In this document: one piece after another, positions 51,781 to 59,597 of the stretch | Layout of the letters: each line of letters begins with the position of its first letter | How positions within the stretch are numbered: the first letter of the stretch is position 1 | From: Agarivorans sp. TSD2052 | GTDB lineage: Bacteria > Pseudomonadota > Gammaproteobacteria > Enterobacterales > Celerinatantimonadaceae | Assembly (NCBI RefSeq): GCF_023238625.1 | Contig: NZ_CP096670.1 | Span: 3,018,501-3,082,500 of the forward strand | Reading direction: 5' to 3' | Length of the DNA stretch: 64,000 nucleotides | Translations under genes and position numbers: made by a program | Notes under the pieces: generated by a model | Seen by the model: only the letters and a program-made list of their open reading frames with translations | Told to the model about the DNA's origin: nothing | Databases searched by the model: none

Positions 51781-52131
51781 GTCTACGCTCATCACCCGCT
51801 AAATAAGCAGGAGAGCCGCAGCAAACACTCGCGTAGATGATTAAAGGCTTAACAAATTTTAGACACATAAATCTATTGGGTGGTCACTGATGCAAAGGTG
51901 TTTCGAATCAAAGGATGTATCAAATAGTCAGAATTGCCGCTACTGAAGTGGACTAAAATTATTGATGATAAGGGACTGTCTCCGGTGCCGTGCGAAAAGC
52001 CGTTTAGTAAGAAACGTTACGTGGCTAGATCACTAGGGCTTACCACAGCGCGTAGGTTTGGCCGTGTTTTTGCTGGCTTTTTGTTTCGCAAAAACAATGA
52101 CAAGCCGTAATATCTCTAATTGATTTGCTTT
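51781..52131. other. Left flank of the cassette array
   Basis: About 350 bases without a gene. From about 52036 it contains hairpin arms (GGCTT...AAGCC and GTTTTTGC...GCAAAAAC) belonging to the first attC-like site. The outer part 51781-52030 is not recognised. Confidence 0.45.
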
Positions 52132-52138
52132 GTTAAAT
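52030..52138 (-). other. attC-like site 1 (left boundary uncertain)
   Basis: Right core box GTTAAAT at 52132-52138; its complement GAAATTTAAC is found at the far end of the same cassette (52638-52647). The nested inverted repeats are GGCTT/AAGCC and GTTTTTGC/GCAAAAAC. The left core box is not clear. Confidence 0.55.
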
Positions 52139-52627
52139 TCTGGACAAGGTATAAAGCCCTGACTTTTCAATAAGTTCCAGTAATGGTTTAAGGTTATCAT
52201 GGCACTCAAAATACAATAAATGAGTATCGTCATAATGTTGTTCATAAACCGCTCTCTGCTCTGGAAAAGCGAGAGTAATAAATGATTGATTCTTAGTTAG
52301 GTCAAGGCGCTTAGTCAACAGCTCGATACTTTTAGGTTCTTTAAAAACGACTCTGCCAGCAGATCTGTATTTGACTAAATATGGATTTAGTTCTGAGGCG
52401 AGTAATTCATTAAATTTTGCCCATTTACAATCAAAGTATTTTTGCTCATCTAACGTACGGTTATCAATATAACGAATAGCGTCATCTCGATGTAACCAAT
52501 GATCAAACACTGTAACGGCAACAAAATCCCATTCTTCTAACTTTCCATATTCATCGGTATCTAAAACAGGAAAAATTCCCACAAGCTCATCATGCTTCTT
52601 TTTAGAAATCGTTCGAAATACTCGCAT
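52133..52627 (-). CDS. Cassette-borne hypothetical protein
   Basis: 164 residues, soluble, no signal peptide. The stretch WDFVAVTVFDHWLHRDDAIR and the following DKYFDCKWAKF-type block are not recognised. The stop codon TAA overlaps the attC core GTTAAAT. It reads leftwards, like all cassette genes here. An unknown protein with no visible partner. Confidence 0.6.
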   Translation of the reverse strand: MRVFRTISKKKHDELVGIFPVLDTDEYGKLEEWDFVAVTVFDHWLHRDDAIRYIDNRTLDEQKYFDCKWAKFNELLASELNPYLVKYRSAGRVVFKEPKSIELLTKRLDLTKNQSFITLAFPEQRAVYEQHYDDTHLLYFECHDNLKPLLELIEKSGLYTLSRI

Positions 52628-52640
52628 ATATGCCTTAGAA

Positions 52641-52739
52641 ATTTAACGCTGCAAACAGCGAGCGTAGTCATTTGGTGTAGCTTTTGCGAGTGCAAAAGGT
52701 GTGACAAGTTGCAGAGTCTGATGCTTTGTCTTGTTATGC
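52641..52739 (-). other. attC site 2
   Basis: Left core ATTTAAC at 52641-52647, right core GTTATGC at 52733-52739. Inner arms CTTTTGC/GCAAAAG and CTGCAA/TTGCAG form a foldable imperfect stem of 99 bases in total. Confidence 0.75.
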
Positions 52740-52970
52740 CATTTTAACTGCATTTGTACTCCACCCACCAACCGTTCATCAGCTGCCTAAGCTCCATAAA
52801 AATCCTTACCATTGTTTCGTATGCCATAGGCTGATGGAGGAAAACCTAAAAAAGTAGCCATCATTGCATGCGTAAGAAAGAGGGTAACCATCCTAAACGC
52901 AATGCTACGAGATGACGCCTTATGGGGTGCGAAAATAGTTTAATCTAACTTATTGACACCATAGTCGTTT
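52740..52970. other. Cassette remnant without a clear gene
   Basis: Roughly 230 bases between two attC core boxes. There is no clear gene or intact left core box of the next attC (a CTAAACGC sequence at 52892 may be a decayed one). I read it as a degenerate cassette. Confidence 0.4.
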
Positions 52971-52977
52971 GTTATGC
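52971..52977 (-). other. attC core box of site 3 (degenerate site)
   Basis: GTTATGC; the complement GCATAAC lies at 53424-53430, the other end of the same cassette. The remaining half of this attC is not clear. Confidence 0.5.
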
Positions 52978-53409
52978 ATTTAACCCTAAGAGATTCCAAG
53001 CCCCTTCCCACTGTTCAATACGTTTTTTGGATATTGAATGATGAGTTGAATCATTATTACTTGGACGATGACCTTTGTGTTTTTCTAAAAATTCACAATG
53101 AACTTTATGGATATCATTTTGAATCCACCATAATGGAGTTATATAAAACTTTGGTTCATTTAACGAGATATCGACAAATACCCAAAATTTAGTTTCATTT
53201 ACATTTTCACGACAAACTTCACCATAATTAATTGTTGTTTGCCATGTTCCTTTATTTTTAGCCCTAGTAGATACTTGATATTTTTTACCATTTAAAGCTG
53301 TAAAGCTAATGAAGCGTTTATTACCTTCTTTTATCTCAGATACATTAACTCCACCAAGATTAATAATTTTCTGGCTAACTGTTGCTAAACCAATTTCTCG
53401 AGTGCTCAA
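52972..53409 (-). CDS. Cassette-borne hypothetical protein, nuclease-like pattern
   Basis: 145 residues. The block KKYQVSTRAKNKGTWQTTIN followed by FWVFVDISLNEPKFYITPLW and a closing STHHSISKKRIEQWEGAWNL recalls the strand-helix pattern of PD-(D/E)XK-like proteins such as DUF4365, but the catalytic residues cannot be aligned reliably. The stop codon TAA is inside the attC core box. Cassette gene of unknown function. Confidence 0.55.
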   Translation of the reverse strand: MSTREIGLATVSQKIINLGGVNVSEIKEGNKRFISFTALNGKKYQVSTRAKNKGTWQTTINYGEVCRENVNETKFWVFVDISLNEPKFYITPLWWIQNDIHKVHCEFLEKHKGHRPSNNDSTHHSISKKRIEQWEGAWNLLGLNA

Positions 53410-53423
53410 TTAAACCTCCTGAT

Positions 53424-53510
53424 GCATAACGCTAACCACACCGGAAAACGAAAGCATAGAGAGCGAAGCGAACGACGCTTTTGGTTTTCCGGTGCTGGTT
53501 TTTGTTACAT
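53424..53510 (-). other. attC site 4
   Basis: Left core GCATAAC (53424-53430), right core GTTACAT (53504-53510). Between them is a strong imperfect hairpin: CACCGGAAAAC at 53438 pairs with GTTTTCCGGTG at 53484, and AAGC with GCTT further in. A clear 87-base attC. Confidence 0.88.
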
Positions 53511-58140: not shown

Positions 58141-58153
58141 AGGGTTAATTGAG

Positions 58154-58225
58154 CTCTAACGCCCGCAGCTGCGGATGACTTGGAGCGCAGCGGAAAGGTG
58201 TTCCGACAGCCTGCGCTTGTTACAT
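58154..58225 (-). other. attC site 11
   Basis: Left core CTCTAAC (58154-58160), right core GTTACAT (58219-58225), 72 bases, arms AACGCCCGCAG and CTGCGCTTGTT. Right core complementary to ATGTAAC at 58647. Confidence 0.85.
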
Positions 58226-58235
58226 GTTTTTGGTT

Positions 58236-58637
58236 TCATAGATCCCATAGCGAGTTAAATCCATTTTCCTTGATGCTTTTCAGAGTATTATTGTCTACAT
58301 GATGGTGCGGAATAAGACCCATATAGTTTTTCCCTGGCATTTTGGGCATGAAATCCTCACTTACGCGATATAAGTTCGTATAACACCATTCTTCGTCACG
58401 TTTATGCATTTCTTGCGTAAAGTCTGCCATTAGCTCCTTTGCGCTTTCCTCTGAATGATATGAAAACCCCTCGTGGTCCTCCGAGATATAAAGAGGGTAA
58501 CTCAGTGGGACGTCTTCAAATTTAAGTTTCGAAAGTTCCCCCTCAGAAATCTTCTGTCGGAAGTCATTCGCATGAGACTCCACCGCAAAGATACCTGCGA
58601 CAAACTCTCTAAAGTCTTTTGAAATGATGATGTACAT
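58236..58637 (-). CDS. Cassette-borne hypothetical protein
   Basis: 133 residues from the ATG at 58637, which lies just inside the cassette start; a longer frame reaches back over the attC and is not likely. Start MYIIISKDFREFVAGIFAVE, then LYISEDHEGFSYHSEESAKE and the end NYMGLIPHHHVDNNTLKSIK. Soluble and not recognised. The His-rich end is an oddity. Confidence 0.65.
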   Translation of the reverse strand: MYIIISKDFREFVAGIFAVESHANDFRQKISEGELSKLKFEDVPLSYPLYISEDHEGFSYHSEESAKELMADFTQEMHKRDEEWCYTNLYRVSEDFMPKMPGKNYMGLIPHHHVDNNTLKSIKENGFNSLWDL

Positions 58638-58646
58638 TCTTAGTCC

Positions 58647-58782
58647 ATGTAACGCCCGCGTAAGAGGCAGCAAAATTTAGCGGTGGTTTGTTAAACTTGG
58701 GCGGAGCACCAAACTAACCGCCGCGTAGTTTTGATGTCCCAGCCCCCGCTTTTCAGGGGGCGACTTGATGTGATTGTTATAT
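58647..58782 (-). other. attC site 12
   Basis: Left core ATGTAAC (58647-58653), right core GTTATAT (58776-58782), 136 bases with arms GGCGGAGC/CGCC-type and CCCCCGC/GGGGGCG. Its size is close to the Vibrio repeat type. Right core complementary to ATATAAC at 59166. Confidence 0.85.
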
Positions 58783-58998
58783 GGCTCTGACTATACGCAC
58801 AAGCCAAACGACACATGCAACGAACAAAAACACCTGAGCAAAACTTACTCCACCGAGCAACAACCAGTAACTCCAGTTGATTACACCCTCACAGTGGATT
58901 TCACACTGAGAGTTGTGTTGCCACGAAATATACATGACGACAAATGCCGCAATAAAACCAAGAGTGCACCCAACAATCACCCAAGCTTTCTTTAACAT
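58777..58998 (-). CDS. Cassette-borne small membrane protein
   Basis: 73 residues with two hydrophobic segments (AWVIVGCTLGFIAAFVVMYI and YWLLLGGVSFAQVFLFVACV) and a Cys-pair between them (CEIHCEG). Inner-membrane protein with unknown role. Its ATG overlaps the stop region of the upstream lipopeptide gene, so the two are coupled. Stop TAA lies in the attC core GTTATAT. Confidence 0.6.
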   Translation of the reverse strand: MLKKAWVIVGCTLGFIAAFVVMYISWQHNSQCEIHCEGVINWSYWLLLGGVSFAQVFLFVACVVWLVRIVRAI

Positions 58999-59150
58999 TG
59001 GTGATATTCCTTGAATTTATGGCTTTTCTCATAGTCACACTCGCACTTGTCATAGTTAAAACTGCCACCTTGATCCAAACAACGATCATTTTTTAACTCT
59101 GTACACGAGCAAGTCATTACCGAAATCATTAGTAGCACTGTGACTTTCAT
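58992..59150 (-). CDS. Cassette-borne small Cys-rich lipoprotein
   Basis: 52 residues, MKVTVLLMISVMTCSCTELK then a short Cys-rich tail (DRCLDQGGSFNYDKCECDYE), with RBS CAGGAGAG upstream. Two adjacent Cys (CSC) make a lipobox likely. The four tail Cys could bind metal or form disulphides. It overlaps the membrane-protein gene and shares its cassette. Confidence 0.6.
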   Translation of the reverse strand: MKVTVLLMISVMTCSCTELKNDRCLDQGGSFNYDKCECDYEKSHKFKEYHQC

Positions 59151-59597
59151 TGACTCTCCTGAGCCATATAACGCTAAGTAGGAAGCACGTGCTTCCTATC
59201 CCATTCAATGAGCACGCTTCCTATCATAGAAAGTGTGACCTAGCGCAAAGTCGCCAGTCTGGCGATGCTCTCTCTTTAACTTATTGTCTACTTTGAGGTT
59301 TTCTTTTAATTTTATCAATAGTCAGTGTTCAAATTTTGTAGACCTTTTTGACACAAGTAGCTTGAGAAATGTTGGGTCTGTAGATAATCACAGTGAAAAA
59401 GTGTGCAGCCCTAAACGTTCAGTTTTCCGCATGTATGGCAGAAGCACTGAGTAAAACGATTAGCTTTGCTAAGGGTGATGGCGGGTGTTTAAGCTGTTAT
59501 TAAACTACATGCCAAGCAAACAATGGGACAAAATGTGTTTGAGCAGAGAAGCCAGTGCTGCTTAGCTCTGCGCCGTACATTTACATTTTTGAAAAAA
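59151..59597. other. Right end of the cassette array, no integrase
   Basis: Starts with attC core ATATAAC (59166-59172), then a 20-bp palindrome (59179-59198) and no matching right core. No integrase gene, attI or other gene is recognisable between here and the opp operon. Confidence 0.5.
59179..59198. repeat. Perfect 20-bp palindrome next to the last cassette
   Basis: TAGGAAGCACGTGCTTCCTA, a perfect palindrome; CGCTTCCTATC recurs 15 bases further. It could be the remains of an attC hairpin. Confidence 0.6.

Follow-up and report, generated by a model that had tools for sequence, protein, structure and literature searches.

The window analysed here, a 64,000-nucleotide stretch of the chromosome of Agarivorans sp. 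TSD2052 (contig NZ_CP096670.1, positions 3,018,501 to 3,082,500), carries a minus-strand array of gene cassettes between oppF and a phosphatase gene. An initial annotation, made from the letters alone, had likened it to a cluster of attC sites lacking an integron integrase (CALIN). Our comparisons make it probable that the block is a cassette array belonging to an integron element that has no integrase gene, is headed by an attI site and bounded by conserved ends, and is filled in trans by the integron integrase IntI. The array would most probably be served by the IntI of one of two integrons in the same genome, C and D. The term CALIN stands by its usual definition, several attC sites without a neighbouring intI, but the array is not an orphan of untraceable origin. 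The source genome (G000) is complete, as one contig of 4,616,181 bp, and was compared with its relatives G001 to G007.

An attI site and a LexA box at the head of the array

The initial annotation saw no attI on either side of the array. A 58 bp attI (59169-59226, minus strand) nonetheless lies exactly where the first cassette begins, with its GTTA end at the cassette boundary, as judged by identity to intI-linked attI sites and by a match to model R1. The stretch that holds it shows 86% identity (64 bp) to the attI sites at intI loci C and D, and 93% identity (70 bp) to that of the G002 integron; the window array, therefore, has its own attI. Aligning 15 copies gives 33 invariant columns, and each copy has GTTA at its end and then a cassette. 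Sites of this type occur in 7 of the 296 genomes of the order.

A LexA-type box (CTGT-N8-ACAG, 59378-59393), the only match to this motif in the 64 kb, is located some 225 bp upstream of where attI ends, in the same place as upstream of intact intI genes. The box accompanies all four intI-bearing attI copies and 13 of the 18 other copies, and it is found at exactly -225/-226 in all four of the former and in 11 of the latter. Of the features of a complete integron, the window has an attI at the start of its array and lacks an intI adjoining that attI.

The integron integrases of the genome

In agreement with the initial annotation, no intI was found within the 64-kb window, nor was any tyrosine recombinase. 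The further claim that no integrase is visible holds locally, but genome-wide three integron integrases (B, C and D) score above the curated cut-off, and two of them, C and D, adjoin attI sites of the window type. The nearest intI is approximately 200 kb from the array. Near-identical relatives of the gene for B, which lies at 3276.6 kb, are present in G002, G003 and G004 (96-98%). Integrases C (1674.9 kb) and D (3942.3 kb) represent a second type of patchy occurrence (G002 and G005, at 92-95% identity). B is 45% identical to D, and no window-type attI was found at locus B.

The cassettes of integron C encode, at L022:8016-12187, a protein of 276 aa and a helicase of 1112 aa, a putative HamA/HamB (Hachiman) defence pair. 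Element C and the element of G000 near 1671 kb lie approximately 3 kb apart in opposite directions (L021:5040-9831), with a relaxase-like gene between them and a common outer flank, as if framing a mobilizable segment.

A dispersed family of platforms without a complete intI

Across the 12 genomes of the family, the window-type attI is present in 22 copies, of which 4 adjoin a full intI and 18 do not. The latter are distributed over G000 (5 copies), G006 (4), G003 (1), G005 (2) and G007 (6); they lie at unrelated sites, and a cassette starts directly after each of them, the first cassettes being mostly different. The six attI platforms of G007 are found in a genome that has no complete intI anywhere, and short intI stubs persist beside two of them.

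The platforms without intI come in two recurrent forms. In class i, the approximately 240 bp before attI are joined directly to the outer 95 bp or so that lie beyond intI in C, D and G002; because both the attI-proximal and the outer sequence are kept, we regard class i platforms as internal deletions. The same internal sequence recurs in several species. The platform of the window (59229-59535, minus strand, left end to attI), which an nhmmer platform model matches and of which a DNA search found dispersed copies, is of class ii. Class ii copies mostly share 200-370 bp at 80-90% identity, and several match the class i model across most of its length. The window platform scored 332.7 bits against a platform model that includes the window itself, and E 2.6e-4 against a class i model built without it. 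Two copies in G006 are 97.6% identical over 424 bp and have different flanks and first cassettes, from which we conclude that integrase-less platforms have spread as such.

A second, decayed platform copy lies in the window approximately 47 kb from the array (12571-12743, plus strand), and has lost its attI end. Several class ii left ends (loci L126, L128 and L132-L135) adjoin the same repeat (CTTCCGCGACTCGGCGATAATG...), perhaps a preferred target.

Element ends and empty sites

From attI to a point 1388 bp upstream, the left end, C and D share 99% identity; beyond it they are unrelated. On the other side, C, D, G002, G003, G005, several G007 copies and the 1671-kb copy of G000 all have, after their last attC, a right end conserved over about 90 bp. 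An nhmmer model of this end, built without the window, finds it in the window too (51842-51944, minus strand; core 51848-51877; E 1.3e-7). The left end core of the window element, CAAACACATTTTGTCCCATTG (59521-59541, minus strand), marks the start of platform homology, with native chromosome to its right. The outer edges have a common palindromic core, roughly TAACnCG-TTTTTG-YCC-AAAACGnGTTA, with short spacers that are unlike at the two ends (TGCCCC at the left and TGTCCA at the right in most copies). The spacers are conserved per end, and not taken from each target. Measured end to end, the elements are 0.9 to 14.5 kb long, and that of the window 7.66 kb. In the intI-bearing form, represented by two copies in G000, attI is the same and the outer ends are of a like kind; the window element has the attI and both ends in common with it, the resemblance being strong at attI and weak at the left end.

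Conservation of the gene block without gaps in related species would, according to the initial annotation, speak against a cassette array. In five congeners the block is absent, and the phosphatase gene and oppF lie 0.08 to 5 kb apart. Native sequence of G003 matches just outside the left end of the window element, resuming at about 59530; the exact target of this insertion is not readable because the intergenic sequences of the congeners are too divergent. A second element of G000 (3308.2-3309.6 kb) is absent from G002, where the flanking matches are 40 bp apart, compared with 1.45 kb.

The attC sites and the cassettes

From 59172 to 52030, the minus strand is made up of small open reading frames (ORFs) separated by sites with GCGTTAnnn ends. 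The matching pairs of end boxes that the initial annotation described were all recovered, at the positions given or a few bases off. A plain scan for RYYYAAC/GTTRRRY hairpins returned many false sites, and was replaced by an exact end-box chain and a covariance model. The chain rule required GC-GTTRNNN, its exact reverse complement 150-1500 bp further on, and the next GC-GTT within 38-170 bp. On the minus strand of 51800-59250, it linked seven cassettes whose end boxes match exactly. In 500 dinucleotide shuffles the mean number was 0.014, and no shuffle gave more than 1. On the plus strand of the same interval there were no chained cassettes, and none in tiles elsewhere, except for one that overlaps the array.

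The covariance model, R3, was built from 37 attC sites, all outside the window, in other arrays of G000 and its congeners. In its alignment 98.2% of cells are paired, with a covariation of 0.697 compared with 0.145 after shuffling; the L''/L' stem has 96.8% of cells paired and changes on both sides in 5/5 pairs, and sliding the whole structure lowers the paired cells to 27-41%. Although blind to the window, R3 recovered six attC sites of the array, all on the minus strand, as its six top matches in the 64 kb (E ≤ 0.003 for five of them, 0.32 for the other), which bears out the initial annotation of a real attC array. The array thus has the two or more attC sites by which a CALIN is defined. 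Genome-wide, R3 identified 27 sites in G000 at E ≤ 0.01. A search of the window against Rfam gave no family match, which says nothing about the array, attC not being an RNA family.

Read from attI, and on the minus strand unless stated otherwise, the array begins with a cassette (58777-59150; end boxes GTTATAT and ATATAAC) that holds two small ORFs of no assigned function (58992-59150, 52 aa; 58777-58998, 73 aa) and ends in the first attC (58647-58782; 31.3 bits, E 7e-5). Cassette 2 has a 145-aa ORF with a TTG start, to which the family search assigned no function (58236-58673), followed by the second attC (58154-58225; 42.2 bits, E 2.3e-7). The 91-aa ORF of cassette 3 (57865-58140) is weakly similar to DUF7684, and its attC (57762-57855) was placed by the end-box chain, being the weak R3 match at E 0.32. 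Cassette 4 encodes a putative lipoprotein or membrane protein of 267 aa (56944-57747) and ends in the fourth attC (56934-56983; 30.4 bits, E 1.2e-4). Cassette 5 is broken (56638-56940), has no attC match and, as read from the sequence, contains an ORF that continues into the next cassette. This zinc-ribbon-like ORF (CPNCG; 56597-56755) crosses the next GTT boundary, giving a fusion over a cassette junction. Cassette 6 (end boxes GTTAGGT and ACCTAAC) encodes a putative lipoprotein of 206 aa (55998-56618).

A long attC-like site without R3 support, shared with other arrays of the genome, follows (55830-55995). The same unusual 166-bp form is found in four arrays (the window; L022:3161-3326; L129:10205-10370; L019:9340-9505), and in the window and C arrays insertion sequence (IS) genes or remnants come next. 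In the window, these are an IS110-type remnant on the plus strand (55298-55829), recognized by repeat copies elsewhere and by a truncated transposase start read from the sequence, then a cassette ORF of 141 aa with no assigned function (54848-55273), then a plus-strand remnant of an IS4-family transposase (54204-54821; NF033591, E 2.5e-51). Beyond these interruptions the array resumes with a 202-aa ORF of weak YrhA-family similarity (53514-54122; end boxes GTTACAT and ATGTAAC) and an attC (53424-53510; 41.5 bits, E 3.3e-7), a 145-aa ORF of no assigned function (52972-53409), a further attC (52641-52739; 24.2 bits, E 0.003), and a final 164-aa ORF, likewise without assigned function (52133-52627). 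Family searches placed none of the cassette products in a family with confidence, and a database search with one of the proteins turned up nothing closer than a distant relative in a Geobacter metagenome-assembled genome.

A candidate mobilizing recombinase and other cargo

IntI is the only recombinase of the tyrosine family inside element D; a P4-type integrase beside D was also considered as a mobilizer, but its gene is located outside the element. In G004, the gene immediately behind a right end encodes a 198-aa tyrosine recombinase, and the core TTTTTTGCCCC comes after it. This 785-bp unit of right end, recombinase gene and TTTTTTGCCCC core is present twice in G004 (L207:7286-8070 and L208:5777-6561), and could be a minimal mobile element by itself. 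The core also stands beside a relative of the gene in G001 and beside relics in G002 and G007, and the sequence adjoining the G006 relative resembles the C/D flank. A small tyrosine recombinase flanked in a relative by the same core is our best candidate for the mobilizing enzyme, although we put the chance that such an enzyme moves the elements well short of even. A 299-aa tyrosine recombinase in array C was rejected for this role, as it adjoins an IS91-type transposase and D has no such gene.

Right ends also cap clusters of VgrG (type VI secretion) effector genes, without attI, in G001, G003, G005 and G006 (loci L212, L215, L216, L219, L220 and L221); the end family, therefore, carries other cargo too.

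Discussion

Our data are consistent with a model in which an ancestral mobile integron unit would have had the order end, intI, LexA-controlled promoter, attI, cassettes, end. Its intI would have been lost through internal deletion before dispersal, and the deletion derivatives would then have spread as non-autonomous units. IntI supplied by an intact copy in the same cell could insert and shuffle cassettes at these intI-less attI sites in trans. The window copy would later have received the IS4 and IS110-type insertions and lost some of its pieces. More speculatively, a tyrosine recombinase, perhaps the 198-aa enzyme found between two cores in a congener, may have dispersed the elements by way of their palindromic end cores.

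Several observations weigh against this account. The evidence is sequence comparison, and recombination itself is not among the observations. At its outer left extremity, class ii shows little similarity to class i (18 bits in the window), and the left and right cores of the window element are less canonical than those of other copies. The left and right spacers differ and fit no simple recombinase rule. Within the stretches read, no right end was found for the G006 class ii copies or for the G000 copies at 2.20, 1.92 and 0.196 Mb. No close copy of the 198-aa recombinase gene was found in G000, and a consensus promoter scan gave no cassette promoter (Pc), though an AT-rich conserved block is present.

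The usual view of a CALIN would be that a complete integron once occupied the window locus and lost intI by deletion in situ. The array is indeed decayed, with its broken fifth cassette and IS4 and IS110 remnants, and the short intI stubs of G007 show that intI decays within this family. We nevertheless consider such a history unlikely: an intI-less platform with the same internal sequence occurs at about ten places in two genera, one genome holds a 97.6% identical pair with different flanks and cassettes, and the same product is not expected from independent decay. It is also conceivable that the ends are those of a broader family of mobile elements with varied cargo, in which the integron platform was captured by chance as a passenger, given that VgrG-effector clusters of four relatives (G001, G003, G005 and G006) are capped by the same right end and that right ends outnumber attI sites by 44 to 22. 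As the R' box of the last attC is exactly where most strong right ends near attI begin, and GTTA and a cassette come after every attI copy examined, this seems improbable to us, and it mainly extends the explanation that we prefer, with little contradiction.

IntI-mediated insertion of cassettes at a secondary, attG-type chromosomal site would need no integron platform; G000 has three intI genes, and events of this kind are known, as cited in PMC12901181. The head of the window array is a full-length attI with platform sequence and a LexA box, not a chance GTT, and the array finishes in a conserved right end, all of which leaves this possibility with very little weight. Slighter still is the probability that a piece of the sedentary integron B, approximately 200 kb off, was brought to the window locus by rearrangement. 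Both arrays run in the same strand direction and contain IS elements, but the intI of B is of the other type, without window-type attI at its locus; the conserved DNA of the window matches C/D-type sites and the dispersed platforms, and matches B in short attC or IS stretches only.

Our preferred reading of an integrase-less element filled in trans suggests that certain orphan arrays of cassettes disperse as units without an integrase and receive their cassettes through one encoded at another locus. A stronger form of this idea, which we hold tentatively and at a little under even confidence, is that the family consists of integron satellites, miniature attI platforms permanently without intI that would be moved around the chromosome by a separate small tyrosine recombinase working on the palindromic end cores, keep the SOS box despite having no integrase for it to regulate, and have their arrays built only by IntI in trans. 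Were this true, a single integrase could serve many attI sites per genome, and many CALINs would have to be seen as satellites, not wrecks. The window is an orphan array with a recognizable attI, origin and right end, and with parallel platforms in the same genome, and so makes it testable whether CALINs are filled and shuffled in trans, and how chromosomal integrons move without Tn402-like carriers. Fixed-phrase searches of the open literature for multiple, solo or integrase-less attI sites returned nothing relevant.

Relation to known systems

Closely comparable is the type C/D chromosomal integron of G000 itself, which resembles the window element in its attI, the kind of its left and right ends and the attC structure of its array; the window copy and 17 others, however, have lost intI by deletion. 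Cassette insertion at secondary attG sites and SALIN-type single attC sites are comparable in that cassettes outside an integron would likewise be explained by IntI working at a distance from the locus that encodes it; here, though, the receiving site in the window is a full attI with platform sequence, and not a degenerate GTT. Miniature inverted-repeat transposable element (MITE)-like non-autonomous elements arise by internal deletion, retain both ends and are more numerous than the complete form. The window family shares all three traits, but what it retains inside is an attI that looks functional, with an expanding array of cassettes, and no DDE transposase is implicated.

In what look like imperfect inverted-repeat ends with a short spacer that is unlike at each end, the window family may be compared with strand-biased circularizing integrative elements (SE), GInt and Tn554-type elements, whose inverted-repeat ends have unlike 6-bp spacers (PMC10214605). 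Unlike SE elements, it shows none of the core genes intA-tfp-intB-srap, the only candidate being the 198-aa tyrosine recombinase of other genomes. CALINs, as defined for IntegronFinder, are similar to the window array in having several attC sites and cassettes without an adjoining intI, and in a survey they numbered 2961 compared with 2760 complete integrons, i.e. about half of integron-like loci (PMC9024848). The window array differs from them in its recognizable attI, in the LexA box that it has kept, in the ends that it has in common with intI-bearing elements, and in the many parallel copies of its platform in one genome.

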